The notes under the pieces were generated by a model. The model was not told the DNA's origin. It saw only the letters and a list, made by a program, of their open reading frames with translations, and did no database searches. A stretch of DNA of 64,000 nucleotides from Litomosoides sigmodontis. Taxonomy: Eukaryota; Nematoda; Chromadorea; Rhabditida; Onchocercidae. Position 1 is the first letter of the stretch, and every line of letters starts with the position of its first letter. Where the stretch lies: contig OY718803.1 in the NCBI GenBank assembly GCA_963070105.1, positions 10,940,327-11,004,326 on the forward strand. Direction: 5' to 3'. The position numbers were made by a program, and so were the translations under genes. Of this stretch, positions 13,801 to 64,000 are shown piece after piece.

Positions 13801-16800
13801 CTTATTTTAGGTTCGAATTTGTAGTCCCTTTACTTGCATATGCTTATTAACTACAATAAACATGAGGATAGATTTTGACATATAGAAATGTGGTTTGGCT
13901 GATTTTATTTTTGATTTATCTCAGGTAGCACAAGAAACGCATCATAGAATTGAGCAATGCATACAATTCAATCGTGCACGCGCAATGGCAGCAGTTGCAA
14001 TACAAAAAATGCAGTACGAAGAAACAAAATTGCTTCATATGAATACAATTCCGACTTCATTGGAAGAAGCCGTAGCTGCTCAAGCTGCTCACAAACAATT
14101 TCAGCACAGCATTGAGGTAGTTATTGCATATAACTGAAGCCGATTTCTTTAATTTTTGCAGCTCTAGTACTTTTTTTCAACAACAGAGGCCTTTTTTATT
14201 TTCGTATCGGTTTTATAAAACTCTGCTAAGAGATCAAGATTTGTTGGATTTTTTTAGAACCTAAAAGATGTAAATTTTAGAGCATCAGCCGTACAACAAG
14301 TGCATTTTTAAACAAAACTGACCACTTGATTAGCAGCGGTGCTGTTGATGTCCGCTCTGTGGATGATTTAAATGAAGAGGTATTAAATCGATGGAGACGA
14401 CTACTTGGTATTACAGAAGAAAGAAATAAATTGATTAAGGCTGGTGTTGTGTGCTACAAAACTTTACATCAGGGAGTAAGTTTTCTGTGATGTTTTGTTT
14501 CGTAAAAGTTTTTCTAAACTTTTTTTTTAATTCATACGTGCAAAGCAATGACTTTCCTAACCGCTATTAATAGAATAATTAATGGGATACTGTTAATTAT
14601 AGGAGGAGGGGAATCTGCTGGATTCTAATACCTGCCCAAGTAAAATTATGAATGACGTATACAATAAAAGAGCTTTTTTATTAAATGACGTTTGTATGCG
14701 TACTTGTTGATATGTTGAAAGTAATGGTTTTTTCCGTGTTTTAGCTAGGAGAAAAAAATGGAACATAAGTAACTTTGCTCGATTAATGATTGCATTTTGG
14801 TAAAATCAGTAGATTTATAGTCGAAATTTTGACGATTGTCATAAGAAATTTCAGTGAACATTAATTGACTTTACGTAGTTTGTTATCAATATTACACCTC
14901 AGTGTTATTGCCAGCTATGCAGTCGAGTGGGAGAAAATTAGTAAGCGGAACTTCTCGAATGCTGCAGCTATTTCAATTTTGTTTGAGGGAAAAACAGCTG
15001 GACAATCAAGTATTTGTCACATAGCAACAGATAGACACTCTGCGTGATAGTACAAGAGTTCATAGAGAGTAATCAGTTTCTCCAGATAATCTTTACAGGT
15101 GATGCCAATTTTGGACCAACTCGAGAAGGAATATAGTATGAGTTCGAAAGATTGGTGTCAAATTACAGACGGGGAGGATGCTAAGGATCGAGCGCGTCAT
15201 ATCTCAAGTTTATTATCGAAACATATGGAATACAAAGAAAGGTTTTTGAAGGTTTGCTCATATTTTACTTTGGTTCAGTCAGGGTAATCTGATGGTGACA
15301 TTTATTACTGTGTTCCGTAATCACATGAAATTATAGGGTTGTTCGTACGGACAGAAAACATCAGAGATGTTTTTGAAATATATTCGACGTTGTGAAGCAT
15401 CAGGAGAACATATAAGGCTGCATGAAACACGCCTTCTAGCTCTTAAAGAGAATTTACGAAAGCGACAAACGAAAATTTTGGATTTGTGGATGCGGAAAAA
15501 GGAGCAGCTTGATCGATGTCATGAAGCATGCCTCCTTGAGGCCACAGCAATTGAGGTGCTATCGAATTTATCAAGTCAATGTACAGCAATTATTTTAAAG
15601 TTAATGAATTTGGAACTAAACTAGTGTTGCGTGCAGTAAAAACTAATTTCTTTGTAGAATACCGAATGGATAGATGTTGAAGGTGAAGCATTCCTACAGC
15701 AAGTTATGGAAAGACGGATAAATTTGAAAGATCGAGAAGCCCTAGAAACGTACATGGATGAATACATGGCATTCAAGGCTGAAGCAAAGGTTTCTATTTT
15801 TCGTTTAAACTGAACAAAGGACATTATTGCTATATTAATTATCCAGTAAACAAAGTGAAATAATGAGGAAATGAACTGATGTAAACGAAAAACGGTGTCA
15901 ATTGCCGTAAACAATGCATTGGCGTTAGACTAACAAAAGGAAGTTGTGGTTCTGAAACTGATAAAATGATGTTGCTTAAATTGGTATTCGAAACTTTTTA
16001 TTGGCAATGGACTTGTAGAACTGAATAATAAGATTTATTCGGGGTTTAACGTTTTTTTCAGCAAAAGAGGTTAAAAGTTCGAATGATGCTTGAATTGGCT
16101 GAAAAATTCGTGTTGACGCGGGATCATCACTGTAATGCTATCGAACGAAGAATACTTGATGTGCGATCGTACTATGAATATTTTTCTATGCGCCTTGCTA
16201 ACTATGAAGATTTTCTTTCTGCAGCTCTGGGGCAAAAATTGGATGTAAATAAAACGGTTTGTTAATTGAAATATGCATACATTTTTAAATTTATCTTATT
16301 TTTATGATTGGAACATATCAACTAAATCATGATTGCAGATAGATGAATTTTCTTTGGATAGAAAAAGTGATTCCAATATTGAAGCGAAAATTGAGGTTGA
16401 ACTATTAGCTAATGAAGAAAAACGTAAAATGAGGTAAGGTGGAAGTTTTGCTTAGTTGAATAAGAGCTGCATGTGCAATTTGTTATCATTTGTGTATTCA
16501 TGTATATTTTATGACTAATTTTGACGTCTTTTTTTATATAAATTCGATATGGGTTTTTTAATTTTTGATTTTTCTTTTAGAGAACCAATGATGGAGTTAA
16601 TCAAATCCGAAATAGATTATATAGAGGATTTGCATAAATGTATTAAGTATTACCTAAGTGCCTATCGTTCGGCAAAAGGCTCTTTACCAGTGACGATTCG
16701 AGATAAAGAGAAAGAAATCTTCAGCAATATTGAACAACTTTATAAATTTCATAACGAGTAAGTTGATGTTTCTGACATTGTAATAACTAAAAATTTCTCT

Positions 16801-19800
16801 GTGAAAGTGAGAGGACAAAAAGTGAGAGTTCTAGTTAATTGACTTATCTGGCTCCCAGTGCAATCGTAGGTTCAATGACTTTTACTAATTGAACTTACGA
16901 TTGCCACGTTTAATTCTACCTCTTTTATGAAACCTCTCGCCAGATGATTGTTTTGTACAAAACCATGCCAGAAGTGTAACGTTGAGGTAGGAAATAGTAT
17001 TTCTTACGAGCTTTCCAGAATTGATATTTTTAGAGTATTCTTGCCGGAATTAATCAAACACGAAAATGATCCAGAAGATGTTGGGTATTGCTTCATATTT
17101 TCCGTTGAAACGTTAAATACTTTATATACGGAATATTGTGTTAACAAAGAACAAAATAATTATATTATTGCACTGCCAGAAGCTATGCAATTCTTTTCGG
17201 TTAGTGTAATGTTTAGTGCTTCAGGAAGTGTTACATTTTATTTCATCTCTTTCATCTTTCATGGTTTTGGGTGTACTACTGAGATGGCTAGATGAGTCAC
17301 TGATTAATGAGGAAGGGTAATTATGTCAAAAACGGATTTAATATGCCATTATTTTATCGAAATCCATTTGCCATCAAATTTCGTGGTCCTAATTTGTAGC
17401 GGCGAAAATGAAGTTTATCTTCCATTTCAAACAGCTTTCTTTGCCCAAAATTTTGCTGAAAATTCGGTCTTATTTCTTCCAGAAAATTCGTGAAAGAAAC
17501 GGTTTGGAACACAGCCAGGATTTGTCGTCCTTAGTAATCAAGCCTGTCCAACGAATTACACGATATCGTTTAATGCTCGAGCAGCTGCTCAAAAACTGCA
17601 AGAATAATGTCGATGAAATCAGAGCACGTTTCCTCTCCTTTTGACATTTTGTTTTTGAATTTAGGAGGATGTTTTTAGAATACTGCAAAGCAAACTGTTT
17701 CTAGTAGTTCATCGGTGAGCGGGAAAAAAATCTGATCATGTCATTTTGAAAGGACCCTGAGACTGCGTTGCATAGCACATTTAAACTTAAAATCACAACT
17801 TCCACTTCATACTTATAATCGCTAGACATTCTTGTAGTGATTTGTCTTGTAAATGCTATAATTTTCACGATCAGATATGATTTCAATATACAATGAGCTA
17901 CTGATAATATTAAATCTCTTTTCTACAGTATTTTGGTTTAAGCGTATATCTCGTTTACAAATGTTGCAGGAAGCTTACGACATTGTTGTGAGCGTCCCGC
18001 GACGGGCCAATGATCTTATGCATCTCGGCAATTTCGAAAATTATAAAGTAAATTTTTTTTGTTTTGAACTGTCGTTTACATTATTTTTGTCATTTACCCT
18101 GTTTGCTCCTGACGTTAATGAGATTGCATCTAAACATAAAGATATCTAGTTCAGTTAAAAAAAAGAATTTTGCTGTCTTTTTTATGAGGAATAACTATGT
18201 TTCTGTTCTTCGAAACGTCTACTTTTGTCTTGCTGAGACTACAATCTTTTATAAAAGTTGCAAAAGTTATGTGTGTTATGTGATGTATTGACAATATCTC
18301 GCTTTCACTCAATTTAATAAATAATGTTTTTTCCAGAAACTCGGTGTTCTTGGTGATTTTGTTATGCAAGAATCATTTCTTGTTTGGGATCCGAAAGCGT
18401 ATTTTAAGAAAGGACGAGAAAGGCAGGTCTTCCTGTTTGAATTATGTGTTGTGTTCACAAAGAAAACTGAATTATCAAGTCGAGCAATCAAATATACCTA
18501 CAAAACTCATCTAATGGCAAGCATTTTCCTATTTCAAAAACAGATCGGATGCCTAATGTCGGAAATGCAGAGAAAGGAAGTAGAATGGGAAAAGTGCAGG
18601 AATGACTGTTAACTATTTTCAAGTGCATTGAAATTTTGTAATTCCAGTGTACTTTTAATCTCATTCCCTTTGGGACACTGGAAATGGTTTGGATGGACTT
18701 ATCCGTTTGGATGGATGGACTTATGCTGTATTGATTAATGTTTGCTTATAATAACGATTGCACTTAAAATTTTTGGATAATGAGTAATCATTGCTGCTAA
18801 CTGTTATTTATGAAATATGATCGTTTGTTTTGAAAATGCTTAACTAAAACATCCTGTGAGAGATTTCAGTTGGCCGAGATCAATGTTTGTGAGCACGTGG
18901 AAGGCGATTCGAGTAAATTTGCCTTACGCCAAGGAAATGAGCCAAATACAGAAATGCGCACGGAGCTGAAAGCAGCCAATGAGCAATGCAAAGTGCATTG
19001 GGTGAAGAAGATTCGAGAATTGATGCAGGGATTGATGACTGCTAATTTCGGTATTGACGTTGCAATCACCCTAGCAGGAGTTTTTTTCAATTCTTTGAAT
19101 TAGAATTAGGGAATTCCCGTGATCAAGGTGAAAAGATTTCGATCTTTGGTCTTGGTACTGTTTCAGATATGAGACAAGTGCCTGCTCGAAATTCAGGTGT
19201 TACAACCACCACTTTAGTATCAGATCGGACGTCGAAAGACAGTGATAGCTTGCCGACGAGTAATGAAGATAGAAATTCATTGCGTAGTTGCGCTTCCTCG
19301 AGCAGCAATCACAATTTGGAGGTATGATTCTTCTATATATAGCTTTTTCCTCAAATTTTTAAGCGTATTATTACTGAGCAGTGGTTTCATTACACCTGTT
19401 ACACACGAACATTACCTTTAGCTTGAGTAGCGGCTTGGTAAACTATGCAGGTGTAAAGAAAAAAGAAATTTGCAAGCTGATGAGCTTTGTTCAACCTGCT
19501 AATGCGAATTTGCAGATTCTCGTGGATTGTTATTGATTTTTCTATTTTTTTGCAAAGCTGACATTTTTTGCTTCATTTCAGGATTTAATGCTTTCACCTA
19601 TACATTAGATGTCAAAAATGTTTTATAATTTTTGGAATAACCTTTTAATACTTTTTTAATACTTTGACGCGCAAATGAATTGGACGGTAGCTTTTTTCGT
19701 CATTATTTCACCAAAATATTTCATTTGACGATAGACAAGGAATTCTCCATTCAGTAGTCCAAATTCTTTCACTATTATTTATACCAGGAATTCTTTCGTT

Positions 19801-26100: not shown

Positions 26101-29100
26101 TGTAGAACCTGGAAATTTCAAAAATAATTTAGCAAGTATTAAATTTATTAATTTTCTTTCAAATCTGTAGAAGTCATTTTATTCACATGAATTAATTATC
26201 TATGGTTTTTTCCAGAAGATCGCTTTCATAGATTTTACATGATATTATTAAGTATTATTATTCCGTATTATATAAATTAGTGATGACATCTATTAGTATA
26301 TTGACGCACTATGTGATGCCACTACTTGGCATTGCAGTCTGCCGAATGTTCCTAATATTTTCCTAATATTCATTCCCATTTTTTAGCTTTTTCTTCTTTA
26401 GCATTTCTCTCTCCGTCTCTATTTATTGGTATGAAATTTAAAGTTGGATTGAATCAAATTTTCAAGTTAAATTTCCTGCGTTATTCACTCATAAATCAAA
26501 TGTTGCGTTATTCGAAATCAATAGATTCACGTACGCAATCATTATATATCGAGTTGCTAAACAATATTTTAATAAATCAGTCCGAAGTCATCAGTCAAGC
26601 GGAAGGAAACTGGAGCTGATTTGTTTGTTTGTTCACATTTTATGGATTTCCGAGTTTGCGACTTTCTACAGTGATTGATATTTACTGTTTTGGGGAGTGT
26701 AATTTGTCCATTAATAATATAAGTGAAATTTCGCATAAACCATAAGTGAAATTTCGCATAAACTTCTCGACTTTCTATTATTTTTTCAGAAAACTTAATT
26801 GAAAATAGTTCTGTTTATCTGAAATTTTTGTGTTAGACCGCGCTATAAAACAGGGGAAGGGCGAGACATAATATGAAAATGAAAGGAAAAAGTATCGGAA
26901 GGAGGAGAGAAAGGAGGGGAAAGATAATTATTGGTATTCGGATGAGGTACTTTAACATAATTGGAATGACTAAATTGAAATTGGTTCATTTCTTCGCGAA
27001 TGCTGGTTATGTAATCGCATTTGTTTATAAGAATGATATAACCCACATTAATGCCTTCCTTTAAGGGGCAATTGAATTATGTTTGAGCTGCTCACTTTCA
27101 GTAAAGTTCTGTTGGTTTGAATCATTATCCTTTCCCATATTCTTCTTTCTATAAGAGACTTGGACAAAGCAACATTTAGTGGTTAGACATTAAAGTGGTT
27201 AGAAGTTTAGGTTCATTCGTTACATGACATAGCTTGAGATTTATGCTTTTTTTTTGTTCTATTAAGTTAGCATATGATAATAAGGTTGTCTTAATTGTTA
27301 AAATTTTATCAATTATTTTCGCATTGTTATCGCAAACTATGAAGATGTGTTCCGTTGAAGGCTGTACTAAAATTTGGCGTGATCGCGTGACCAGTTCAGT
27401 TGTGTTTTTGAAATTTTTAAACCCAGACGTCGGTTTCAAATGTTCCTTCTATTAATGTGATATGCTGCACTTAATAGCGGTTTTTTTCTTTCCTTTAGTT
27501 CAGCATTTAGTTTGTGCTAATGACGAATAATAACAGCAGTAGTGTGTAAAAGTTAATTTTCTGTTTTAAATGTAGTTCTCTTGTAGGAATTTTACTTTTT
27601 GAAATAACTGCACAGATCCTTGTGTGGCGTCTGGAATATTTTGGAGGTTCAATTCTAGAAAAAGCAATAATTGTAGGAGCCTTGTATCTACGAGAATCAC
27701 TGCTCAGTAAATGATGACGTTGTATGATATTGTGTAGAGGGATTTTGAAAATTTGTAAGAAATTGGAAAAAAAAATCATCTTGGAACGATGTGATATTTG
27801 TTTTTAGGGTCATAATGAAGGTTGCGTAGCCGTTGATGATTTCAAGGCAACTGAGAAGGGACAACTTTCTGTCGCCAAAGGGCAGCGACTTGAGGTTAAA
27901 TTCCATGTCCATTTGTACGGATTGCTCCTCATGAAATCGATCGTATTCAAAAAAAAAACAGAATTTGTTGTCTTTTTTTGCAGTAATATACCAGGAAATC
28001 TTTTCGTTTTAATCGGTACCCTTACTTCTGACTACCTTTTCCTTGTTATTCCACTGAAATTCTTTTCGACTGGATACTTTGGTCACTGGTTATTAAACGA
28101 GTTTTGAAATTTCCTTGCTGAAGAAGGCAGAGCTGATAGGCCTTCTTTTTGTGTCTGATTTCTTGATCCTTTGTTTTTACTGTCTGAAACGATGGATGGT
28201 TTGTTTAAGCTATATATGTTTCTTTGCCATGGAATGATGGAAGTAAAGTTGCGTAAAATTTTTTTATGCTTTCAAGCCTTGACAATTTTGTTAACTTATA
28301 TTGCTAGCTTGCCACTTCCTTTCATTGTTTTATTAATACATGCAGATTTTTATATGATTTTTATATGTATGTTTTAGTAATTTAGAAAACAAAGTTTCAG
28401 GTGGTAGAGCATTGTGGTGATTCCCCAGAATGGGTGCTTGTTTCGATTACTTGGGAAAATGGTGAACAACAACGTGGACTTGTTCCATGTTCGGTTATTT
28501 CATCTATAGAACCAGCAGGTTGGTTGATACTGTTAATTGTCATTCCAAAATTTTCAGGGAAAAAAACAATTGGGAATTGTTGAATTGCTAAATTTTGTTC
28601 CGCTTGGTAATAATAGCACATAATGAGCAACACTTGCGGTAAAATTTGTATTGGCTCACAATTGCTGAACTTACGTTCATTTTCGAATGTATCGAATTTC
28701 AAATGTATTTGAAATTGCTTCAAATTTATTACGATATGAATGATATTAAACGTATTTGTTATAACAGTATCATATGATAGTAGAAACTTACACATACAAA
28801 CTTACATTCTTTACGGTCATTTTCAAGCATTCGAGGGACCAAATGCACTTTTAAATGTTCATTCAACTTATTAGTTTCAAGAAAAAAGGATTTAATTGCG
28901 CTAAGTCATTTTGATTACGTTAGTTACAGCTATAACTGAAGAAAAGGAGAGAATGAGAAAAGTAAGCAGTTTGGTGATGATTAGTTGGTTGAGATATGAA
29001 TGTTTACATTCTTGTCTTTTTCTCAAAAATTTTTCATTTCTATTGTTTATTTAGATGTAAGCTTTATCTTCTACTTGCACTTTAGATGTTGATGATATAT

Positions 29101-38100: not shown

Positions 38101-41100
38101 AGTCTAAGCGAAACTACTGATAAGCCAAATTTATTGAATGGTGAAAGGCAAAAAAATAGGGCGAAAGATGAGAGAAAGAGAGATAATGAAAGTCCCAAGA
38201 GTGTTTTGAACTATTTCCACACGCATGCATATTCGTACATATGGAAATTAGAGTTAGAGTAAATTAGGATAATGCGACAACTATCACATGCGAAGTTTAG
38301 AGCAAGTGGTTTGGGTGCATATGATCAAAAGGAAAAGTTGGAATGAAAAGGCTTTGCTTCTCATCTAGCCATATAAGCCTGATCATGAAGTAGGCATTGC
38401 AGCCACTTGATTCCGGAAGTGTTTTTTTACCGTGAAGAATTAGTTGATATGCGTTTTTTCTTTCTAATTTATATTCACTTACATTGAAGGGAAATAATCA
38501 TCTTCGCTAGTATTTTTTTCATTGCATTTTGAATACTTTTGATAATTTCTTCTTTTTTCACCTTAGCTCTTTATGTAAAGCTTTTGTTAGCATTAAAAAA
38601 AATAGTGTAACTTTCATTCATTCATAATATTTCGAAAGAATTTATTAACGTGGACTTTAAAATTTTAGTGGATGCTTTACACTCCTTCACTGCTGTAATA
38701 TGTTTATTAAAAAGAAAAAAAACAAAGAGAGAGTTATGAAATGAAGTAATTTGAGATGAGGCTTTCTTAGTTGAGAAGAAATTTGTTTCACTAAGAAATT
38801 TTCAATAATTTTGATTCAGTATTGCTTATTATTTAATGTTGTCATTCTGATACAATTTGTATTCCTTGAAAGCGATCAGCTTTAACTGTTTGATTTGGTT
38901 GGTGAATGAGTGATGAGTGATGTACGAGAAGGGACGAGACATATTTTCATTTTCAGCAAATGAGAGTTGTAGAGGGAAGAAGGAAGAAAGACGTGGAAGG
39001 TTGAAGTTTCCTGATGTGTTCTGCTATTGCTTTATTCAAGCTTCTAACATATTGATAGCTTTATTCTATTCATTCTTCGTTTTTCACCTGACGAAAGTTT
39101 TTCCCACGCTGTGAGCTTTGATCTTCGATCAAATGATACATATGGTGATTAAGTAAACAGGATAAGATAATGGAAGCTAAAGTAGCGGTTATGTAATACA
39201 TGTCGTGTTATATTATCTGCAAATTGTCAGTTTTTACCCTCCAGACTTTCCTCCTGCACTTTCCTCTTAGTTAATTTATTGCAGAAAGTAAGTGATAAGA
39301 GGCGAAGGAAGAGGGAGGTAGGAAGTAAGAAAAATTGAACAGTTGTTTGCTGTTTAGGGAAGTAGTAATAAGCGTTGAAGGAAAAAGGGATAAATGCTTG
39401 CTTTGAGTGAGGACAAGAGAGAGGTTATTACTTTTATCCTTCTCTCCCTTCGTTCCACATTGCTCTCAGATATTTTCTGGTTCTAAAACTCTTCTCCTCA
39501 ACCTCTCCATCTATTTTTTTCCGGTTTACGAGAGTGATGATTGAGGAGAAATGAAATACAAGCAGAAGAGGAAAGTGAAAAAAAAAACAATTAAAAAGCT
39601 TTTTCCACTGATGAACTTGTTGAGAAAGTTTTGTTTTCTGTGTTTAATTGTATTAATAAATTAAGGTGTAATTTATAGGGGAAGGGAGGAGGAACAATTA
39701 AGAAGGATGATATTTTCGTCAACGCTTTGCATAATTTGAAAAAATAAAAAACTGTTTGGAGCTTTGGCAGTCTCAGAAGAAAACTCGAGTTTTAGCTTGT
39801 GAAACTAGGAACGCAATCATTTCTTGACTGTAATTAGTATGTTGCGGTAGAGTGCATTTCGACATGACAAATAACCACTTTGTAAGCACAATGGCATTAT
39901 TTCGAAAGACCTGTTTTAAAATTGTTTTTTCGAAAAAGTGTATGGCTAAATTTTGAAATTGTTGGTTGACTTCAAACACTAAACATTGTATTGTAGATGG
40001 AGGAAGGGCACGAAAACGATGAATCAGTTCTTTGCACAGAAACAACGGAGGACGAAAATGGCGCTTCAGAAATGGAGGAGAAGAATCCGCAGGATATTGC
40101 AAGGCAAAAGCGACAGTGCGTTGTTTTTTCGAAATCTCTTTAATCTTGTAATTTAAGTAGTGTTAATAATTATGACTTGTAATTGTCAAATTTAGCTGAT
40201 AATTATCACCTTGTTCCTCATCATGAAGAATGACTTTTGTTAAAATTAAAGTTTGATTGACTATAGAATGAGTTTAGGGCTGTGATTATTCTTAATGATT
40301 GATTATTATTAGATGTGTTCCAATTCAGATATTTACTCGTGTTTATGTTTATAATGATTCAAAATTGTAATGTCAGGTATGTACTGATGGAATTGGTCGA
40401 CACGGAACGAGACTACGTGAAAGATTTGAGTTCAGTAGTAGATGGGTATATGGCAAACTTGCAAACGGTGGACTTGCCTGAGAATTTAATTGGCAAAGAT
40501 AAAATCATTTTTGCAAATATCGCCCAGATTCTTGATTTTCACAAAACGTAATTTATCATTTTATTTTATGTTTCATCACATCGAGTTTTGCGGTAGCATT
40601 GCAGTTATCGGCACAATCCTGTATTCTATTTTTTTTAGACTGTTTCTGAAGGAAATTGAAAAGTGCCTTGAAAACTATGAAGCTGCGGGTAACGCTTTTG
40701 TTAAATACGTGAGTTTTTTTTCCAAAGGTTATTCGTAATTTTTTAAGGTATCTATCAGCATGCACGATCGGAACACTTCATGCAAGTAATCACATACTTA
40801 AAAATATTAGTCGTATGAAAGGTAAAGGTTATAAGGTTTTAAAGGTTTTGACTAAGTTGCATTTGTGTATTTCTCGTTGGTCGAAAACGTTGCAGTAGCA
40901 ATAAATGATGTGAAATCTGTTGGATACAACGAGTTTTCCAGTGAACTTATGAGTAGATAGGAGGAGACAGTTGCTTTCTGTTACGTACCTCACCTTCTGG
41001 ATATCGTATACAATCGAACTTTTAGGTCGTTAAGTCAAAATAAATATCATCAATAATTAGGTTATTGCAGGAACGAAGGCTACATACATATTATGTGAAA

Positions 41101-44100
41101 TATTGTCAAAACAAGCCAAAATCTGATTTTCTGATGGCACAAGATGATTTTGAGCAAGTATGTTTGCATTTCCGTAGTGCATTTTTTTCTCTTCATCCTA
41201 TGATTTTATCAGCTAACCTTGCTTATTTTCTAGCATCCATTAAGTGATTACGTAACTGATTTTTCTACACAAAAATTATCTGAAGTATTCGATTTTTCTG
41301 TCAAAAGTGCTCTCATCGTCAGCATTCTCTTGAGTTCACTAGATTACTGGAACTCTTAAGTTTCCGATAGGTGGCTTATGATGGGATCTTTTCTCCTTGC
41401 GTGAAAGTTTCGAAGGTTTTTTTGCTGCGCTTGCATTACCAAATTGAAATAGCTTACAAATTTTGTCGATGAGTAGTTTCATGTCTCACTTTTATTTCCT
41501 ACTAATTGAACGTGCATTATACAGTATTATTTGCAATAATTTTTCTAATGAGGATAAAAATAATATTTAATCGGATTGTTACAGTTTTTTGCCGAAATAA
41601 AACAGAAATTGGGTCATAAGATATCGCTATGTGATCTGTTAATCAAACCAGTGCAGCGTATAATGAAGTATCAGTTACTGATGAAGGATGTTTTGAAATA
41701 TACAGAAAGAGCGGGTGATCAAATGGATGTCCTAGAAAAAGCTTTTCAAGTTCGTTTTATTTATTGAGTTAATATTGGTCCTCGAAGGATTAATTCCGTG
41801 GGCAAGGTTATATTTGCAAAGTTCAAATTCCAGTTTTTCAGCCAACTTCTTAAGAATTATAATTAAATCATAAGACTTTTTCTCTAGCACATAACGTAGG
41901 TAGCTTAAATCAGGGAGTTTAACATTTGATCCATCCAATTAGGTGCATGAAAACCATTATTTTATTTTTACTGTGATGTGTATTGGACTAGGAAAGGATC
42001 ATGAATTCCTTTTCATAGGTTATGCATGTAGTACCGAAGGCATGCGATGATATGATGCAAATTGGACGATTGCAAAATTTTGATGGAAATTTAAATGCTC
42101 AAGGAAAATTGATATATCAGGTTGATTCATCTATTTCATCATCCTCAAAAGCGAAAAATATCCATGACTGTATAGGATGATCAGCATAAAGTGTCTGCAT
42201 GTAATTTTAACGCAGACACAATACGTCAATGTCAGTTCTTGTCCACATGTGATATACGCGATGTAGGAGAATTTTGTAAATTTTTTTCTTAATGCTGAAG
42301 AATTTTCAGGGAACTGTGGCAATCTCAGATAATGCTCCGTCTCAGCCTTTCAAAGGAAAAGATAGGCGAATATTTCTGTTTGAGCAGTCTGCAATCATTG
42401 CAGATTGCATTTTACCGAAGAAAGAATTTGGCAATCCTACATATATCTTCAAAAGTCAAATTATGGTCAACAAAGTGAGTTCACATAAACTCTACCTAGG
42501 AATCTAGGTCTTTACTTTTGTTTCGTGTAGTTGGTCACAACATTAATCTGTAACTGAATGATTTCATAAGATATATTGTAAGAGCAAGCACCGCTTCTTC
42601 GACCCTTGCATAACTTGTCAAATGGAAAAATTTTATAACTAAATTTGAATTCAGATGGTGCTGGAGGCAAATATTCCTGATGAACCGTTACGTTTCATCC
42701 TGAAAAGTAATGATCCGATACAACCGATTGCATTCGTAGCACAAGCTAATACAGTGGAGGAAAAGGATGAGTGGATTTTGAAAATAAACAGTCAGCTGGA
42801 TCAGCAAAAAACACTTTTAGCAGCTCTGGTAGATCCCAAACGCTATCAAAATCAACTTGCCGGAAGTGTGAATTCATTGTCATTGTAAGTTCTTTCCTTT
42901 TATTCTGTCTCTCTTCTTAATCTATCTTGAAATAGCAATTTCAAAATGCTAACACCGGTTGCTGTTTTTTTTTCTTCATACTTTGTTGTAACAATATTAA
43001 ATTACTAAATGCTACAATTTAACTTAGTAAGAGTAAATTGGAGGCGAGAAACTTGCAAATGACTTTTGTTACTTGTGATGATTGGTAATTGTGTTAGTGG
43101 TGCTGGACTAGGCAGTCTTTTGACATTAAACTCTGTTGTTTTTATATCTTCATTTCGCAACAATTTTCGTTTTTTTTGATGTTTTTTTATTTTATTTAAG
43201 ATTTCAGAGAAGAAATGGACAAGAAGAAAACGTTACTTCCACGGCTAATGAGTAAAAGTAAAGAAGAAAACCACATCTCCTCGGGTGCTTCATCTTCGAC
43301 GAATCAAAATTCTAGCACGCAGGCATTGCCGTCGAAGAGCAGCTCTTCGACAAAATCATCGAAGTTATTTGGTTTTGGAAAAAAAATGAATCCATCAAAT
43401 AGTAACAAGTCAGCGGCTGTAGGTAAATTAAAATAACATCGAAGATGGTACCGGGACAAACCAGAGAACAACGATGAGTGAATGTTGTGAGCCGTCGAGT
43501 CGCATTTCAGTCCTTTAAAAATTATCTTCAGTTATCTTTTGGAATGTAATCATTTTTTTCTCCTATTTTTATTTTACATTGTTTAAGTGGCTTTTGAAGA
43601 CATCATGTTAGCTTTTTTGACAAATGAATTTTCTGGATTTTTTGCTGACAAAAAAAGTAGTAACTGTCGTTTCTCTCACGGCAATAAATAATGTATGGCA
43701 TGTCAAAATTTTGAAGAAATTTGAAAAAGATATCTTTTCTTCGGCAAACATTGTTCAGTTGATGATAGAAATAATTTTTTCTTTTTTGATGGCGTGTAAG
43801 AAGAGGGACTGAATTACGAACTTCAAAAATTTTTTAAGTATTCGACAAAAATCCTCAGAACTATTTCCTTTCTATTTGAATTGGTCATCTCCTCACTCAC
43901 TGATTTAATGATGTCGGTTTGTTCATATAATTTTCTATTGTTGCTTGTTATTTATTATGAATAGTTATTGTATGTGAGTAGATTTATACAGTTTGAATGG
44001 TACCAGTTGTTTCAAAAATTGTGAAATAGTTTTGTTGTTGTATTAAAGAATTGGTGAAAGATATGAGTAGTTCTTATTTATTTGAATTACACGAGAAAGC

Positions 44101-47100
44101 TAGTAAGGAGCACTTTTTTTTGTAGAAGAATTAGTTGATAATTATGATTTGGAAGATAATTTCGGATTCCACTTGTTGCCCAAAATTACATCGGTGTTTT
44201 CGTTTAATTATTAGCAGTGATTTTTCTTCATTCGTATCGTTTTATTCAAATTCATGTTACTTTAATTTACCAGCTTTTCACTTCTGGTAAAGCTTAACAT
44301 TAATTTCCACGAAATTATCCTATCCTGATCTTCTGCCATTTTCTTACTCATTTTCATCCATTTAGTTAGACCGTTTCATTCACACCTATCGACACCAATT
44401 TTTCCACCTGCTTTTCCTTTGCTGAATTTCATTTAATACAATGAAGAGGAAGAGGAAAAAAAATCGCTGTACATGCATTGTTACTTGTAAAAAAGTGTAA
44501 AAATGCATTTTTTCCGTGTTCTACTTTTTTCACTACTCAATAAATGAGCTTATGCACAATTTGAGTAAAGATATTATTCTCAAATGTTGCCGCTCAGTTC
44601 CTTAACGTGAGAAAGAAATTGGACGTTTTAAATATCGGCATTAATACACGTTGAATTTTTTCTTCACACTCAATAATTTCTTGCCTTGCTGTTCAAGCAG
44701 TCAGCGGTTTCCTACACAAGCAATTACTCAGCAAAGCTTTCAAAGAAAGAACAGAGCAAATTTGAAGTTTTTTTTTAAATCTTTACCTTCCCTCTGTCAT
44801 TCAACAAAATTGCCAATAATTAGCACAAATAAATGTGATAGAACACATAAGTGATTTTGTATTATTTTGCAATATAAAATTTGCGCAAATGTTGATATTA
44901 TTCATATTTTATTTTGCTTTGTATATTTTATTTTTTTAAATTAATATTTCTAATTTGATATACAATTATGGAAGAGGAACGATTCATTTGTTTTTTTTTC
45001 CTTTTTCATATTTCGCTCATTTTTATCCATCCATCCTTCATTAATGCATCATTTGTATTTGTTAGGTATATGAGATGTATTCATTGTGTCGATGAAGTGG
45101 TCATCAATCATTTCGAGAAGCAGGAAAAGGGAAGAATTGAAATACGTAAAATGTATATGAATGTTATTTAATTTATTACTGTCATTTGATCATTTAAATA
45201 TCCTTTTTTTTGTTTGCTTTCATCATTCGTTGTTGTATCATTGTTTTAATGATTGATTGATTGATTGAAGAATTGCATGCAGCGATATCTTTTCCGGTTC
45301 ATGATGATTTATTACTAGTATTCATCATCATTATTACTAATTATGACTATAAGAATAATATTGATTGTTATTATTCGTCATGTTGTATTTTTAAAGAAAG
45401 GAAATGAAGCTTTGGGATAAAAATGTATTTGTGAAGATATTTAGAGGAGGAAGGACAGTCTTTTTGCTCATTCATTATTAAATGCCTAGTTTTTTCTTTT
45501 TTTTTTAAAATTTTGACCTCTTCCCTCATCACTTCCAACATCCCCTGTTTTCCTTCCCACTCATCGCATCTCTGTCTCTCACTCCTGGGAGTTTTTTTTT
45601 TACTCGTTTTATGTTTGCAAAATGGGAATTCCTTAAAGGAAGAGAGAATTAAATAAGAAATTAATTTCTTAAGTATTTCTTCTCTTTGATCTCTGATTCT
45701 TTTCCTCATATTTTGCTTTTTTTGGAATTGATATTTTTGTGGCCAAATAAATATCGCTTCTAAGCTGTCAGCTTCACTGTAAATAGCATATGACAAGGGT
45801 TAGCATTCCACGTTGTCTATTAGGCATACAATGAATTCACTTTGCATTTCAGTTTAACTATCAAAGGAAAGTTAAATGTAAATTTCTACAGTTGAAAAAT
45901 TTGCGCCTTTCTGCCTCCGCAGGAAATACGATATTTAGCATCACTGACCTGATTGGAGTAGGTGGATGTGTGCGTGTACGCAGTCGTTTGTCAATTTCAA
46001 GTGTCGAATTTTCGGTGTCTTTTAGCGCCTGTGATAATTTCCTTACAATGAAAGTAATGTATTTAGTAGATTGATAGTTTCAGTGACTGGGAGATTCAAG
46101 CAAGTGATTGATTTCTCCCAGATAATCAGTAAGGGGAGAGAGAAGTGAAGAGATTGAAATGACAAGTGATTTCTTGTAATCAATCATTGAATGGCAAGAG
46201 AGATCTTTTAAAGTGAAATTTATTGAAGATGTTATTAACTCATCAATTGTCATGGCGTTTTTTTCCTCTTCCATCTCACATGTGCTTTGAGAGGTGAAAA
46301 GTGGATCGGAGATGTTTTTTGATGAATTAATCCTGAAATGAGTGAGGTGAGATGGCGGATTAATGATTGAGTGAGTATATTGAGAACAGCTTGCGTGTTG
46401 CTAAGAAGAGTTAGTTATTAGAAATGCTAACTTGTTTAACAGTGTTCATTTGCTTTACCTTTCAACAGTTGTTGTTCTGGCATTGCTGATGAAGCGATGA
46501 CGACAGCAATTTCTTTCAATAATTTGAAAAAATTCACTTGAGAAGTTACCGGAGCTAGAGGGAAATATGTCAGATGGAACAATAACGGTCAGTTTTATTT
46601 TCCGAATTATTGCGTTGTGCTATTCACTCTTATTTATTCATTTTGTACATACATTGAATCGCCTAGTACAAGTGATCACCATAGGAGCTTTTTCTTTCAA
46701 ATTTAAAATTTGATGAAAATTTATGATTGTATGAGATATAGCTGGAATAATTTTGCTAAAACTGTTTTTTTTTTGATTTCAATGCTTTGTACTAATATTT
46801 AGCACAAAGATAGGTACATAATTCTATTTTAACTATGTGTGATATTTTTCGAGAATAAATTTTAATAATTATATTTGAAATTACAGTGCTAAAATGCGCT
46901 TATAATTAAATGTGGTTGTGATTAGAAATAATTCATGATTCTGTTTGCTATTTAGAAGGAATTGCGCTTTGTCATTTTCAGGAGCAATCGTCGATGTGCG
47001 AAGAATGTGTGGGCGAAGTGTTTGCTGTAATGAATTGCTCATTCACTGCAGTGAAGGAAAAGCAAATTAGTGGCCATCGAGGGGAAAAGGTATGATTGTT

Positions 47101-50100
47101 GCCGAACTGAATATTATTAATTAACATATAATGAAGTTTTATTAGTGTTCACAGTGTTCGATGTTCATTATTTTGTTCGGTAATTTAAAGTTGAAAAGTT
47201 ATAGAGTTTGACTGATAACATCTGGATAGCAGAAAGATAATTAACCACAGTATGAGTAAGCTGTTGTTTGTGTATCGAAATTAACAACTGATTAACAGAT
47301 GGTTCATTGAGAGATAGAAATTATTGGTTATTATAATGTTCACGTACAAAATGGACTTCGTATAATTATATCTCGCACGTAGTAATTGCGCAATAATTTA
47401 CTTTATTGGAATAATTGTAGATTCGTTGAATTTTTGCAAGTCTTTTACAGGTGAAAATTCTCGGAGTTGATAAAAATGGATATGCAGAAGTTGAGAAAGA
47501 GGATGGCAAGAAAGGTTATATTCCGACTTATTTTTTGGATCTGAATTCGGTCCCAGGTGATAATTTTGCTCAACAAATAAGGTTTGTTCTACAATGTTGT
47601 ACTTTCGCATTTAATTTTGTTAAATTTAATGTAATGATTATAAGCTTAGGCTATACTAATGCAATAAATAAGGCCTCATTACCTTAACTATAAGAACTGT
47701 TATTAATGGGTATAAGATTTATTTAAGTAATGTATATGAAAAAAAAATAGAAAGCAAAAGCAAGAGAAACAAATCGCCATTCAAGCACTTTTTGTTTCAG
47801 ATATCGTCGGAAATGGTATCATTTAGTCGACTCAAGCCAGACGCTAATTTTTAGAAACAATCCGTCTAATTTATTAAACAATATTTCATATCTAACTGAT
47901 TTAATATCATTTCTACCTGTACAAAAGGAATCACTTTCATTGATATTCCCTTCATCTTCTCATAAGCAGCCAGTGTGTACTGAACCCTTACAAGATATGA
48001 CAATAAAATTGGGAGAAAAAATACTTTTGACATGTAAATTTTTCTCGCACGAATCACTTACGATTGTTTGGCGTGGTCCGGTAATTACAGCCAAACGTCA
48101 GTATGAAATTTTCGTAAGTGTGAAGTCTTTTCTTTTTTGCTTACTAATTCAAAATTGAAGTACAAATTGTAATTGGCAGGAAAATTAATTTAAACTCAAA
48201 AAAAAAATAAAAATGAAAGGTGGTGATTTTTTACTTCTGAGTTTGCATGAATTTTAATGATATTCTTCTGGCGTTCATATAATGAAAGAACTTTAGAAAA
48301 GATCTCATTATGTAATTTAAGCCTTCTTCATTCACAGACACTTGGATGAGATCAACTTTTCCTTACACGTATCGAAATATGTATATATTTAGAATATTTA
48401 ATTTCTAGGAAAAAATTTAGAATATATCTTGAATATTGAATTATATCTCTCGTCTATCAACGTCATTAACTTTTACACGATCGTTGCAATTCATTTGTCA
48501 AGATTAAATCGTAGTAATACTCTTATATAATCATTGGATTAAATGAATGAAAAAGGTTCTGTGTTGTTTGTAGACAAAAGAAGAAGGTTGTTCAATGTTA
48601 ACATTGAAAAAATGTGTGGAAGAAGATGGTGGACAGTATTGGGCTGAAGCTGAAAATACCTTCGGTAAATGTCATACTGTCGCGTGGATTACAGTAATCG
48701 TGCCACCCGGCGTAACACATATCACAACATGTAAGGCAATTAATCGTAATAGTGTGTTGTTACAGTGGAAAAATACAAGGAAGGGTAATTCGAAAACTCT
48801 CCACTACGTTATAGAATATAAGCGAGAAGGTAACTTTTTAATGATAATTTTAAATGCCAGTAAATCTGCACTTTTTCAATTCAGTTTTTTCATTCGCACT
48901 TATATGATTTTAAAATTTTATCTTAGAATTATTGTAATGATGACATTGCTTCAGTGTATTTATGAAAACTTCTTAATTATACACTAGTTAAATAAAATTA
49001 TCTCAAACTGTCAGTAATTTGCAGATATGATTGATTACAAGGTAGCAGTGGAAGGTGTCACTGGTATATCGACTGTTATCGCAGATCTCAAAACGGCGTT
49101 CTATTCCTTTCGTATTTACGCCTTCAATGAATATTTCAAGGGTCGAGCTGGGCCAACAGTTGACATTGACTTAAATTTGGCTTCCTCATCATCCACTATT
49201 CTTACGGATGATATCAATGCTAAGGTAATAGTTTATTTACAATTATTTTCTGATTGCTGCATCATATTTCTGTCTGTTGTAATTTGTTATGTGTATATAA
49301 GCCATTTTCACGTAGAAAATTCAATGTGTGGCTTAAGCTATACACTTTTCATTATTTTTGCTTTCCCCTGAAGTTACATTTTAATAATTTATTAGGTGAA
49401 ATATATTGATGAGGCGACATATACAGAAATCTATGCCACTGCTCGCATTGTATATAAGGGGAAATTTGCTGACGTGAAGGAAATAATACGTAAAAGTGAC
49501 AAGAAACGGTATGCGGCAAAATGTTTCATGCGTGAATACACGCAAACTGAAACGGAATGGAAAGATATTGAACGTGAAATAAGCATTATGCGTCGCATTC
49601 GACATCGTAATATTGTTTCTTGTCGTGGAAATGTTAAAATGGACAACGAACTAATCATGATTATGCAATGGTAAAATGTTTTTATTTAACAGAAAAGTTT
49701 ATTATCCTTCTGGAGAGTTGCTGCATAGCCGATTCATAATAGTTTTTTAGCGTTATTATCAAATAAAAATCAGTATGAGTCATTATATTAACAGGTTAAA
49801 TGGTCCGCATCTATTAGACTACATAATAGGTTTGGGATACGTATCGGAAGCATTAATCCAACGATTTTGCAAGGATCTTCTATCAGCATTAAAATATCTT
49901 CATTCCTTTGATATTGCTCATCTTGCTATTCAGGTAAGAGTTTTTGTCCGGTCTTTCTGCCTTAAATAAAATTCCGATATCAAATTTTTTATATTAAAGC
50001 TTTACGAAAAATTTTCCATTTTCGTTGTTCTATTTGTTTTTACTATTTTTTTCTAGCCAGAGAATTTACTAACTCATGTTAGTAATGTTGTACGACTTGT

Positions 50101-51451
50101 GGTAATAGATTTCGGTTCTAGTCGATGTAGTGAAGAAACAGCTGTTTTGAATTCTCGTACGATTGATTTTTCCTCACCGGAACAAATTTCCCATCGTGAA
50201 GTTACAACGAAATCAGATATGTGGTAATTAATTACTCACTTAGTCGGATATCATGTCAAAGTATTGCTTTTTCAAACGATATATTTACATGCAAAATTTA
50301 AAGCATACAAAAGTAAAATATACAGTAGTAGTTAATTGTTCTTATTAGCAACTGTCACAATTCGAGTGTAGACAGGTTGTCATCACTGGTGATATTTATC
50401 GCTTTACCTGGCAATTTGATATAATTCTAATCCTAGAAAAACTAAACTGCACTAATTTTAGGAGTTTTGGAATTGTCTTATATACATTAACAACCGGTAG
50501 AATACCATTCGATGATGAATACTATGAAATGATACGGCTAAAAATCCTTTCTAACATTTCAACAATTGATGAGATAGGAAATTATCGAATTCATTCAGAG
50601 GCACTTATTGCGATACTGAAATCTGTAATTGTTGGAGATGCCAAGTAATTTATTTTTCGTGGTTAGATCACCACTACTCACGAAACATTGAATTTCGTTT
50701 TTCAATGTGATTTTTAGTTTTAATGTTAGGTTTTCATCCTGATTTTCTTTCAATTTCAATTGCCGAAAATGGATTGGGGTCATTGTAATGAAGGATAGAC
50801 GTAGGAAGAAAATGGAAGGAAGAAAAATTGAACTTAGTGGACTAAGAGATGCTTGACCAAAGAAGAACCACTGAATTTGGGATGTTTTTGTTGAATTACA
50901 GACTACTAATGTTTCCTTTCATTAAGTTCAATTCAAAGAACTCAATTTAGAATTTGACTGGAATTAACGTCGGAATTAACGTAATGATGCCTTTATCCCT
51001 CCCATTAGCTGATATATATTTCAATTTACAGAGCTCGACTGTCAGCAGCAGAATGTCTGAAAAGCAAATGGATGCAAAGTGTTCGTTTTTTGAATTTATG
51101 AATCGAAATTGAAATTTACTTGAGCAGGAAGTGCTGTTTGTTACGTTCAGCTTTTCATTCACTAAAGTATGATTGCCCCGTTCACAGAGAGCATTAACAG
51201 GATTTTTACATGTATATGTGGCCTCACGAAGATGATTTAAAAGACGATTTAAACAAATCTTCCATAGTCCAATTTAGGTCTATGGAATTACTCAAAAGTC
51301 TAGCTTTCCTCTTGTAAAACATGGATGTTTTTTATTCGATTTTTCCGTTTTAAATTGCTTATAGGAAGGAAGCGGAGAACTTTTCCTCGTAGATTATTTG
51401 GAAGATTACAAGGAACGACGCAAGAAGCAACTTCAGAAGACTGGTGATTGA
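6738..51451 (+). CDS. unc-73: UNC-73/Trio/Kalirin-family dual Rho-GEF with C-terminal pseudokinase domain
   Basis: One gene of about 58 exons encoding about 3,083 residues, close to human TRIO (3,097). Approximate domains by residue: CRAL-TRIO 1-168, spectrin repeats 170-1230, DH1 1233-1418, PH1 1421-1541, SH3 1614-1680, DH2 2003-2200, PH2 2202-2333, SH3 2450-2527, Ig 2585-2672, FnIII 2673-2780, kinase-like 2785-3060. Exon coordinates are in the module entries; phase is kept throughout. By family knowledge DH1-PH1 activates Rac/RhoG and DH2-PH2 activates RhoA, acting in the cytoplasm in axon guidance, cell migration and synaptic function. The full Kalirin-like layout with FnIII and kinase-like domain differs from C. 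elegans UNC-73, which I recall as lacking a kinase. Uncertain points are the true N-terminus and the PH2-to-SH3 linker exons. Large linker introns suggest internal promoters, as known for C. elegans unc-73. Confidence 0.95.
8048..16433 (+). other. unc-73: unc-73 module: spectrin-repeat exons
   Basis: Exons 8048-8236, 8344-8477, 8584-8671, 8828-8950, 9118-9309, 9446-9589, 9935-10141, 10595-10775, 11160-11233, 11328-11510, 11608-11731, 11844-11959, 12228-12374, 13374-13484, 13925-14116, 14281-14475, 15099-15251, 15337-15555, 15658-15789, 16062-16256 and 16339-16433. Helical heptad-like sequence runs throughout, with TRIO landmarks such as [46 protein letters not shown] and [12 protein letters not shown]. 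The region covers about 1,060 residues, enough for the eight or nine repeats of the family. It acts as a scaffold and membrane-partner binding rod. Confidence 0.92.
12375..13373 (+). other. 1-kb intron within the spectrin region
   Basis: AT-rich, with no exon supported. A 121-codon frame at 12943-13308 is hydrophobic low-complexity sequence without matching splice phases. The acceptor is TTTGAAG rather than the usual TTTCAG, but the downstream exon aligns with TRIO and keeps phase. Confidence 0.7.
17624..17969 (+). other. GC-AG intron inside DH1
   Basis: The exon ends at ATCAGA|GCACGT and the next begins after TTGCAG at 17970. Only this donor gives [12 protein letters not shown], which matches TRIO EIKDGLEVMLSV residue for residue in length. 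The nearest GT (GCAC|GTTTCC) breaks the frame. Confidence 0.75.
18517..18869 (+). other. Probable GC-AG intron inside PH1
   Basis: The donor is CTAATG|GCAAGC and the acceptor is GATTTCAG. It gives [18 protein letters not shown], the same length as TRIO YKSKLFTSELGVTEHVEG. The only in-phase GT alternative (GAA|GTAGAA near 18580) would insert about 21 extra residues into a PH strand. Confidence 0.65.
20166..20199. repeat. (TA)n microsatellite
   Basis: Thirty-four bases of alternating AT with a single AA phase shift at 20190-20191, followed by shorter degenerate ATATA stretches to about 20226. Confidence 0.95.
21731..21895 (+). other. unc-73: Candidate alternative first coding exon of unc-73 (55 codons)
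   Basis: From ATG at 21731 the frame reads an Arg-rich, low-AT sequence ([15 protein letters not shown] ... [18 protein letters not shown]) ending at CCACCG|GTTTGT, a phase-0 donor that fits the phase-0 SH3 exon at 27808. As an internal exon it fails: the acceptor-like GATGTCAG at its 5' side would put a stop in the main frame. That is the pattern of a first exon for a shorter isoform starting just before SH3-GEF2. No homolog is recognised. Confidence 0.45.
26719..26763. repeat. Direct tandem duplication, period 23
   Basis: Two identical 22-base copies of ATAAGTGAAATTTCGCATAAAC-type sequence, separated by one base, within the large intron. Confidence 0.9.
28519..31535 (+). other. 3-kb intron after the first SH3
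   Basis: AT-rich, with no exon, repeat or RNA gene that I can support. Confidence 0.65.
31536..40115 (+). other. unc-73: unc-73 module: SH3-GEF2 linker exons (Ser/Gln-rich)
   Basis: Exons 31536-31796, 32910-33018, 33786-33981, 36259-36537 and 39997-40115. The translation is low complexity and basic, then Ser-rich, then acidic: [37 protein letters not shown] (compare TRIO RKWLTSPVRRLSSGK), [32 protein letters not shown] and [15 protein letters not shown] leading into DH2. The SWLALRRHW-like basic patch sits at the TRIO-equivalent position. Phase is kept across all five exons. The donor at 33981 could instead be 33963. Intron 33982-36258 is 2.3 kb with no other content seen. The ATG opening exon 39997 could also serve as an isoform start. 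Confidence 0.8.
36538..39996 (+). other. 3.5-kb intron before GEF2
   Basis: AT-rich and pyrimidine/purine-tract rich. The 79-codon frame at 38023-38262 has no splice sites in matching phase, and I treat it as chance. As a gap just upstream of the GEF2 exons it is a plausible site for an internal promoter, but no motif is visible. Confidence 0.55.
40377..42884 (+). other. unc-73: unc-73 module: DH2-PH2 (Rho-type GEF2) exons
   Basis: Exons 40377-40547, 40639-40708, 41071-41157, 41585-41749, 42019-42120, 42310-42474 and 42655-42884. DH2 reads [55 protein letters not shown] and [20 protein letters not shown], close to TRIO GEF2. PH2 reads [34 protein letters not shown], then [11 protein letters not shown] and ending [20 protein letters not shown]. 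By homology this module activates RhoA. Confidence 0.94.
43208..43436 (+). other. unc-73: Ser-rich exon after PH2 with a read-through stop
   Basis: The exon 43208-43422 encodes a Lys/Ser-rich tail ([17 protein letters not shown]). Its donor is GCTGTAG|GTAAAT. If that donor is not used, the frame adds GKLK and stops at TAA 43434-43436, followed by an AATAAA at 43683-43688. This would give a GEF2-ending isoform without SH3-2, Ig, FnIII and kinase-like domains. Which form is made cannot be told from sequence. Confidence 0.6.
43423..45922 (+). other. 2.5-kb intron after PH2 exon
   Basis: AT-rich, possibly also containing the 3'UTR of a short isoform. A balanced-composition stretch near 44699-44762 looks exon-like but meets a stop in the required phase. 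The 141-codon minus frame at 45371-45796 is Lys/Glu-rich low complexity with no homolog recognised. A short TTGA tract lies near 45250. Confidence 0.55.
45923..46053 (+). other. unc-73: Candidate unc-73 linker exon before second SH3
   Basis: CTGCCTCCGCAG precedes 45923 and ATGAAA|GTAATG ends it at 46053. It accepts phase 1 from exon 43208-43422 and hands phase 0 to exon 46982, exactly as required. Its frame ([15 protein letters not shown] ... [12 protein letters not shown]) is open and less AT-rich than its flanks. I recognise no homolog. A 29-base exon at 46559-46587 is an alternative way to bridge the phases. Confidence 0.5.
46559..46587 (+). other. unc-73: Candidate short alternative exon or first exon (MSDGTIT)
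   Basis: ATG at 46567 opens seven codons ending at ATAACG|GTCAGT in phase 0, fitting exon 46982. Used from an AG at 46557-46558 it also bridges phase 1 from exon 43208-43422. It could start an isoform with only SH3-2, Ig, FnIII and the kinase-like domain. Confidence 0.35.
46982..47581 (+). other. unc-73: unc-73 module: second SH3 domain
   Basis: Exons 46982-47089 and 47451-47581. The sequence [18 protein letters not shown], then [18 protein letters not shown] and [12 protein letters not shown] aligns with TRIO's SH3-2 (VTHDYTAVKEDEINVYQGEVVQIL ... GWIPGFVLG). The usual core Trp of the peptide groove is not obvious (GYAEVE in its place), so ligand binding may be altered. Confidence 0.8.
47801..49224 (+). 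other. unc-73: unc-73 module: Ig and FnIII domains
   Basis: Exons 47801-48113, 48574-48829 and 49025-49224. The Ig shows [30 protein letters not shown] and [15 protein letters not shown]; the second canonical Cys of the DxGxYxC motif is Ala. FnIII follows with [30 protein letters not shown] and [18 protein letters not shown]. This Ig-FnIII order is as in Kalirin and C. elegans UNC-73. Confidence 0.88.
49396..51080 (+). other. unc-73: unc-73 module: kinase-like domain, predicted pseudokinase
   Basis: Exons 49396-49670, 49795-49933, 50057-50223, 50462-50644 and 51032-51080. The N-lobe has a degenerate Gly loop ([11 protein letters not shown]), the ATP-anchoring Lys in RYAAKCF (about residue 2826) and a glutamate-rich alpha-C ([16 protein letters not shown]). 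The catalytic loop is HLAIQPEN: the proton-acceptor Asp is Ala (about 2920) and the catalytic-loop Lys is Gln. DFG is intact (VVIDFGSS), APE is SPE, and [13 protein letters not shown] and [11 protein letters not shown] follow. TRIO has HLDLKPEN here. The fold is complete but phosphotransfer is unlikely. The substitutions straddle the 49933/50057 splice junction, and both sides keep phase. Confidence 0.9.
51365..51451 (+). other. unc-73: unc-73 last coding exon
   Basis: After GCTTATAG, 28 codons ([20 protein letters not shown] ... TGD) end at TGA 51449-51451 and resemble the post-kinase LTSFIERRKHQND of TRIO. It is joined in phase 0 from a weak AGT|GTTCGT donor at 51080. If unspliced, the frame instead stops at 51099-51101. 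No AATAAA is seen in the next 100 bases. Confidence 0.65.
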
Positions 51452-57156: not shown

Positions 57157-57162
57157 CGTTAC

Positions 57163-57170
57163 CTGAAACA
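57163..57170 (-). promoter_or_regulatory. Probable SL1 trans-splice acceptor of smu-1
   Basis: TGTTTCAG on the minus strand ends six bases (GTAACG) before the ATG at 57156. The protein already begins at the family's usual N-terminus, so a leader rather than a coding exon is expected upstream. Confidence 0.6.
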
Positions 57171-63868: not shown

Positions 63869-63888
63869 TGAATGTGTTGCAACAAAAT

Positions 63889-63897
63889 CTGCAATGA
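63889..63897 (-). promoter_or_regulatory. Probable SL1 trans-splice acceptor of the GRASP gene
   Basis: GTCATTGCAG on the minus strand ends 20 bases before the ATG at 63868, leaving a very short leader. No coding exon is expected upstream. Confidence 0.5.
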
Positions 63898-64000
63898 CCA
63901 ATTAGCTACTGTTTGGAATTAAAATACATGGTAGCTGCGTTATCATTTACGTATATGCACAGCATAACTCGAAACTAGCTTTTTCTCTTTTTATGTCCTA

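Follow-up and report, generated by a model that had tools for sequence, protein, structure and literature searches.

A predicted pseudokinase at the C-terminal end of Trio/UNC-73 in Litomosoides sigmodontis and other filarial nematodes

The 64,000-nucleotide stretch of Litomosoides sigmodontis DNA analyzed here (hereafter the window; contig OY718803.1, positions 10,940,327 to 11,004,326) carries a gene which, judged from its coding sequence, is an ortholog of the Rho guanine nucleotide exchange factor (Rho-GEF) Trio/UNC-73 with a C-terminal kinase domain. The catalytic aspartate of this domain has been replaced by alanine. Orthologous domains lacking one or the other catalytic Asp occur in all nine filariae surveyed, and the filarial domain is probably a retained pseudokinase which most likely serves as a protein-docking module and not as an enzyme. 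The predicted pseudokinase thus belongs to a real Trio gene and is more widespread and more varied than was held by the initial annotation, which had been made from the letters of the window alone.

The kinase region consists of six forward-strand exons with GT-AG borders (49396-51451), which provide 900 in-frame bases and a TGA ending exactly at 51451. Pfam PF00069 matched residues 10-262 of a 270-residue version using the read-through end at 51101 (166.4 bits, E 1.1e-48), confirming the complete C-terminal domain proposed initially. The catalytic loop reads HLAIQ/PEN, with a phase-0 intron splitting Q and P. The Ala codon GCT (49925-49927) and the Gln codon CAG (49931-49933) could be read directly, so that both proposed substitutions, Asp to Ala and Lys to Gln, stand. 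The range given for the codon string CTT GCT ATT CAG, 49925-49933, is wrong by one codon, since the CTT begins at 49922. As had been noted, the Gly loop has lost its first Gly, which is replaced by Tyr here; the third is Ala, as also in DAPK1 and DAPK3. The beta3 Lys (AAK), alphaC Glu, loop Asn, DFG, SPE, SDMWSFG and C-lobe Arg are retained, including every residue previously listed as kept. Pseudokinases are defined by the absence of the beta3 Lys, the HRD Asp or the DFG Asp (PMC4718504), at least one of which, the HRD Asp, is missing here. With a catalytic Asp absent from the pair, phosphotransfer by the normal route is predicted not to take place. Nucleotide binding in the L. sigmodontis domain is nevertheless plausible, since it still has the beta3 Lys, the loop Asn and the Asp of DFG; for ATP binding, neither Asp166 nor Asp184 is described as absolutely required (PMC4718504).

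It is hardly credible that the altered loop is an artefact of the assembly or gene model. The loop does end at a splice site, and the gene models of Thelazia and Parascaris seem faulty at the same junction, the latter having an insertion at the position equivalent to Q/P which looks like an unspliced intron. However, Ala at this site is common to seven of the nine onchocercid orthologs, which makes chance or error unlikely, and another L. sigmodontis record (P0006) is identical to the window across kinase and tail, with the same Ala and Gln. The initial annotation had also considered an alternative exon restoring Asp. None was seen by eye in the three forward frames of the five kinase-region introns. 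A loop pattern run over 46000-64000 matched once, at 63068, and the pattern H.[DE][LIVMF] over 49000-52000 matched twice, in the known C-lobe and in an intron; none of these matches is a catalytic loop. The domain is single-copy: 5 of the 19 genome matches are the Trio locus itself, the next best has 30% identity (E 1.1e-9), and no second, active kinase copy was found in this search. As a control, the best eight of the kinase loci returned by a search of the same genome were inspected; the loop was recognizable in six, all with Asp, and the pattern left two of the eight unmatched.

Orthologs were obtained through three length-limited protein searches, in two of which the best 7990 candidates by shared words were scored. 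One search gave 106 matches at E <= 0.001, including 9 of 13 orthologs, and another gave 19 matches at E <= 1e-20, including 12 of the 13, four of them new. A 3295-residue full-length query yielded 5 matches among 5016 candidates, none recognizable as nematode Trio. Among the matches are 13 distinct kinase-bearing orthologs from nematodes, namely nine onchocercids, Thelazia and three ascarids, all members of one nematode clade (clade III). A Brugia protein may lie within the 10-member cluster of P0008. Residue counts refer to these 13 proteins; the window row was omitted as being of the same species as P0006, and so was the outgroup row, Denticeps DAPK2 (P0119), which keeps HxD, loop Lys, Asn and DFG but has an aberrant N-lobe in its model. 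The Elaeophora and Setaria models stop early, inside the C-lobe, and the A. viteae model lacks the tail.

The full set of tallied canonical residues was found in none of the 13 proteins. The beta3 Lys, alphaC Glu and APE Glu are retained in all of them, the DFG Gly in 12, the DFG Asp in 11 and the loop Asn in 10, whereas the HxD Asp and the loop Lys are each retained in 5 (each with one gap; the Thelazia model is without the loop) and the first Gly in 3. The catalytic Asp is Ala with DFG intact in seven of the nine onchocercids, with the loop Lys changed to Gln in Litomosoides, Acanthocheilonema, Cercopithifilaria, Elaeophora and Setaria, to Arg in Wuchereria and to Glu in Loa. Onchocerca volvulus and Dirofilaria immitis have the loop HLDIKPEN together with NFG in place of DFG. 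Exactly one catalytic Asp is therefore missing in each onchocercid and both in none, and the first Gly is Tyr in all nine. Outside the filariae, Thelazia has Ser at the first Gly and DFR, and the three ascarids retain GRG, HxDxK and the Asp of DFG (DLG in Toxocara) with the loop Asn changed to Asp, giving PED, in Anisakis, Toxocara and Parascaris (P0014, P0112, P0114). The PED change is the same as that in Drosophila obscurin PK1. The Loa loa protein P0111 carries the name 'CAMK/DAPK/DAPK protein kinase', but in alignment it corresponds to the C-terminal part of Trio, with Ala in place of the catalytic Asp; it is probably a Trio end without kinase activity, which bears on lists of kinase-inhibitor targets.

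These data modify the initial annotation in two respects. Its suggestion that the lineage shows an intermediate state holds as regards a pseudokinase, but the Ala is not private to the lineage, and 'intermediate' is too simple a term. Sister species with an intact HRD-type Asp, which it had taken as evidence to the contrary, do exist in Onchocerca and Dirofilaria, yet both are predicted to be dead through NFG.

Bilaterian TRIO is described as having retained one kinase, kinase-A (PMC12198301), and the domain is therefore ancestral and not a gain of these nematodes. The fly and worm Trio orthologs are stated to have no kinase domain and hence to offer no insight into its role (PMC3541206), in agreement with the initial annotation on C. 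elegans UNC-73 and Drosophila Trio. A tree of the C-terminal region (609 columns, with six catalytic columns omitted) placed Onchocerca and Dirofilaria beside Wuchereria with a support of 28/26; because of this poor support, the published species tree was used, in which Setaria lies outside ONC3 (Onchocerca, Dirofilaria) and ONC3 is sister to ONC4+ONC5 (PMC4654488, PMC12693587). By hand count on that tree, the HxD and loop-Lys changes take two steps each under both of two scenarios, later changes to Arg and Glu aside. The first involves two identical double changes (in Setaria and in ONC4+ONC5) and a separate DFG loss in ONC3. The second involves a single loss followed by a regain of both residues in ONC3 along with loss of the DFG Asp. 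A regain for catalysis would seem odd, because ONC3 lacks the DFG Asp, and we infer that separate losses are preferable to regain. The association of HxD, loop Lys and DFG is perfect in the nine species, yet it comes from few events and therefore has no statistical weight alone. It is tentatively proposed that the Trio kinase was silenced several times independently via either catalytic Asp and then kept, with selection favouring a folded but silent kinase on a Rho-GEF.

In an active kinase, conservation is expected to peak at the Gly loop, the catalytic loop and DFG. Among the nine filariae, conservation is instead 0.91 from the hinge to alphaE, 0.75 from the catalytic loop to SPE, 0.78 in the remaining C-lobe and 0.79 in the tail. 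The best 40-residue stretch (0.92) runs from IMQW to KYLH, and its value was attained in 4 of 5000 column shuffles. In conservation, the Asp columns of HxD and DFG rank at the 28th percentile and the loop-Lys column at the 5th. The tail piece ELFLVDYLEDYKERR has 0.93 within filariae; its value of 0.64 to ascarids is about the same as that of the alphaF stretch EVTTKSDMWSFGIVL (0.65). Identity between L. sigmodontis and D. immitis is 0.91 for the first SH3, 0.88 for DH2, 0.91 for PH2, 0.80 for the second SH3, 0.75 for Ig and 0.76 for the kinase. Across more species, the kinase is slightly more diverged than the adjoining Ig domain.

The main rival to a retained docking module, and one which we consider rather unlikely, is relaxed constraint, in which the need for catalysis has gone and the domain decays slowly toward the state of C. 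elegans and fly, where it is lost, collecting lineage-specific lesions without any gained function. The lesions do differ by lineage (HxA, NFG, DFR in Thelazia, PED in ascarids), the loop-Lys column is poorly conserved, in three of three comparisons the kinase has diverged somewhat further than Ig and SH3, and the domain is stated to be absent in fly and worm (PMC3541206). Nevertheless, the domain core is kept in all nine onchocercids, including those with the incomplete models mentioned above, the best-conserved stretch is non-random, and the tail piece is conserved, all of which argue against simple decay.

Several points weigh against a retained docking module. The kinase is less conserved than Ig among the nine filariae (0.77 vs 0.80), to Thelazia (0.57 vs 0.67) and to ascarids (0.41 vs 0.47), and its least conserved parts are the N-lobe (0.69) and the Fn3-kinase linker (0.56), as expected from decay. 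The whole domain is reported lost in C. elegans and fly (PMC3541206) and is therefore dispensable somewhere. Titin-like kinases are described as active in invertebrates and inactive in vertebrates (PMC4042850), which is the opposite trend. In addition, residual activity may exist without the catalytic Asp.

A kinase still active by an unusual route, with some other residue replacing the catalytic Asp, is very improbable. In its favour, seven of the nine onchocercids have all of the beta3 Lys, the alphaC Glu, the loop Asn and the Asp of DFG, and WNK kinases are known exceptions to the sequence rules (PMC4718504). However, the base and loop Lys are lost here and the metal-binding Asp is lost in Onchocerca and Dirofilaria, so that no common mechanism would fit all nine species, and a change of the catalytic Asp to Ala is stated normally to abolish activity (PMC10129394). 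The catalytic residues lost differ between sister lineages, so the conserved function is probably something other than phosphotransfer. Such lineages form a natural separation-of-function series, in which conservation shared by HxA and NFG proteins points to a non-catalytic job.

The docking module favoured here would keep a CaMK/DAPK-type fold with a C-terminal helix. The closest solved structures by sequence (phmmer) are DAPK3 and DAPK1, and the closest PDB entries by profile are titin and then DAPK1; the domain is thus nearest to DAPK and titin kinases and probably falls in the DAPK/MLCK/titin (DMT) class of CAMK, in which a C-terminal helix packs on the kinase. The PDB rows examined contained no Trio or Kalirin kinase. 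A structure model from 47 rows including distant kinases gave a good kinase, with a part of Fn3 that is absent from P0006 left unmodelled; an earlier 12-sequence model (mean predicted local distance difference test score, pLDDT, of 42) was set aside. The model predicts a C-terminal helix at 591-606, and some of its fold alignments reach residue 609 against chains of CaMKII, DAPK and CASK, a MAGUK protein, as judged from range ends only. The hinge-alphaD-alphaE face and the helix at the C-terminus would be the docking surfaces of an Ig-Fn3-kinase cassette, which may position or restrain the neighbouring RhoGEF2 or a partner, a scaffold role that would resemble those of titin kinase and fly obscurin PK1 in muscle. 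Both the docking role and any effect on GEF activity are put forward as predictions.

It is also possible, if somewhat doubtful, that the kinase belongs to a separate short product (SH3-Ig-Fn3-pseudokinase) made from an internal promoter and that GEF regulation takes place in trans, which would be compatible with a docking role. An MSDGTIT-type exon begins the annotated protein in L. sigmodontis (where that protein has SH3-Ig-Fn3-kinase only), A. viteae, W. bancrofti and S. digitata; in O. volvulus the start is ten residues upstream of it. Because annotated proteins start at this exon, an internal promoter yielding a GEF-less form is suggested. On the other hand, the phase-0 donor at 43418 can join 46982 in frame, making a long form feasible, and the D. 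immitis model P0012 combines SH3, DH2, PH2, SH3, Ig and kinase in one chain. Long and short forms may both exist. Alternative donors occur within 43208-43436: use of 43418 joins the second SH3 in phase, whereas read-through stops after SNKSAAVGKLK, in which case the product would be a GEF2 form lacking Ig and kinase.

The locus as a whole was laid out with a simple gene model of the window and Pfam, in which the exons outside the domains are uncertain (Table 1). The domains share one strand and extend over roughly 6.8 to 51.45 kb, in the order CRAL-TRIO, spectrin repeats, RhoGEF-PH, SH3, RhoGEF-PH, SH3, Ig, Fn3 and kinase. This is the order of TRIO/KALRN/UNC-73, with the first SH3 match under the Pfam cut-off, and a CAMK-group kinase placed after Ig-Fn3 is characteristic of TRIO/KALRN. 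The donor at 51080 (AGT/gttcgt) is weak, with a score of 1.25. Two C-termini appear possible at 51080-51101, namely the conserved helical tail or a short read-through end, VRFLNL, similar to that of the A. viteae model (NVCF). Downstream, a reverse-strand frame at 53705-53902 has a weak WD40 match (26.4 bits; cut-off 27) and is probably part of the next gene.

Table 1. Features of the Trio/UNC-73 locus in the window (positions are those of the window)
Feature	Position	Strand	Evidence
CRAL-TRIO (Sec14) exons	6816..7822	+	gene model; PF13716/PF00650 above cut-off
Spectrin-repeat exons	8413..16130	+	PF00435, three stretches
First RhoGEF (DH) and PH exons	16432..19043	+	PF00621 93.9 bits, PF22697 63.7 bits
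First SH3	27808..28514	+	PF14604 25.6 bits (below cut-off of 30); 91% identity with Dirofilaria P0012
Second RhoGEF (DH) and PH exons	40114..42807	+	PF00621 125.1 bits, PF22697 78.7 bits
Exon after PH2	43208..43418	+	phase-0 donor GCT/gtaggt at 43418; in-frame join to 46982
Alternative first exon MSDGTIT	46567..46587	+	ATG 46567, donor 46587; P0006 starts MSDGTITEQSS
Second SH3	47024..47546	+	PF07653 31.8 bits
Ig (I-set)	47967..48699	+	PF07679 42.2 bits
Fibronectin type III (Fn3)	48703..49176	+	PF00041 28 bits
Kinase exon 1	49396..49670	+	Gly loop YKGKFA (49453-49470), AAK Lys, alphaC Glu
Kinase exon 2	49795..49933	+	hinge, alphaD, alphaE (best-conserved stretch), altered loop HLAIQ
Kinase exon 3	50057..50223	+	PEN, DFG (within 50105-50119), SPE (within 50171-50185)
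Kinase exon 4	50462..50644	+	SFG and C-lobe; SDMWSFG straddles the 50223/50462 junction
Kinase exon 5	51032..51080	+	end of C-lobe; weak donor at 51080, read-through end possible at 51101
Last exon	51365..51451	+	C-terminal tail EGSGELFLVDYLEDYKERRKKQLQKTGD and stop; tail conserved among relatives

The Trio/Kalirin kinase is a little understood part of the Rho-GEF family. Among the papers listed in the literature searches, judged by titles, abstract starts and passages and with subscription papers mostly outside, no description of a nematode Trio kinase or Trio pseudokinase was found. 'Trio' was likewise absent from the searched text of a Trichinella kinome paper (PMC5015942) and of a survey of kinases in which Brugia, Onchocerca and Loa are named (PMC8080662).

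Among known systems, the vertebrate TRIO/Kalirin proteins are the direct counterparts. The Kalirin12 order of Sec14, spectrin, two RhoGEF, two SH3, Ig/FnIII and kinase is the same as here, but mammalian Kal Duet 12 is described with an active kinase (PMC3541206), whereas the filarial copy lacks one catalytic Asp. Titin kinase resembles the filarial domain in its Ig/Fn-kinase cassette, is the top profile match in the PDB and is regarded as a non-catalytic scaffold; it is reported to strengthen the binding of MuRF1 to neighbouring Ig-Fn domains (PMC4042850). The DFG Asp of titin is changed to Glu (EFG), so that the same site is altered as in the NFG of Onchocerca and Dirofilaria (PMC4042850). 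Nevertheless, titin is a sarcomeric protein and not a RhoGEF scaffold, L. sigmodontis has lost the other Asp, and the inactive members of the titin-like kinases are the vertebrate ones (PMC4042850). In PK1 of Drosophila obscurin/UNC-89, the catalytic Asp is Gly and the loop Asn is Asp; it differs in being one of two kinases of a muscle protein, keeping GxGxxG and binding ATP without Mg (PMC10129394). The CaM-kinase domain of CASK differs in having the DFG altered to GFG (PMC4042850) and is not an ortholog. By these comparisons, a candidate pseudokinase scaffold of the titin/obscurin/DAPK class is now placed in a family whose fly and worm members have been described as kinase-less.
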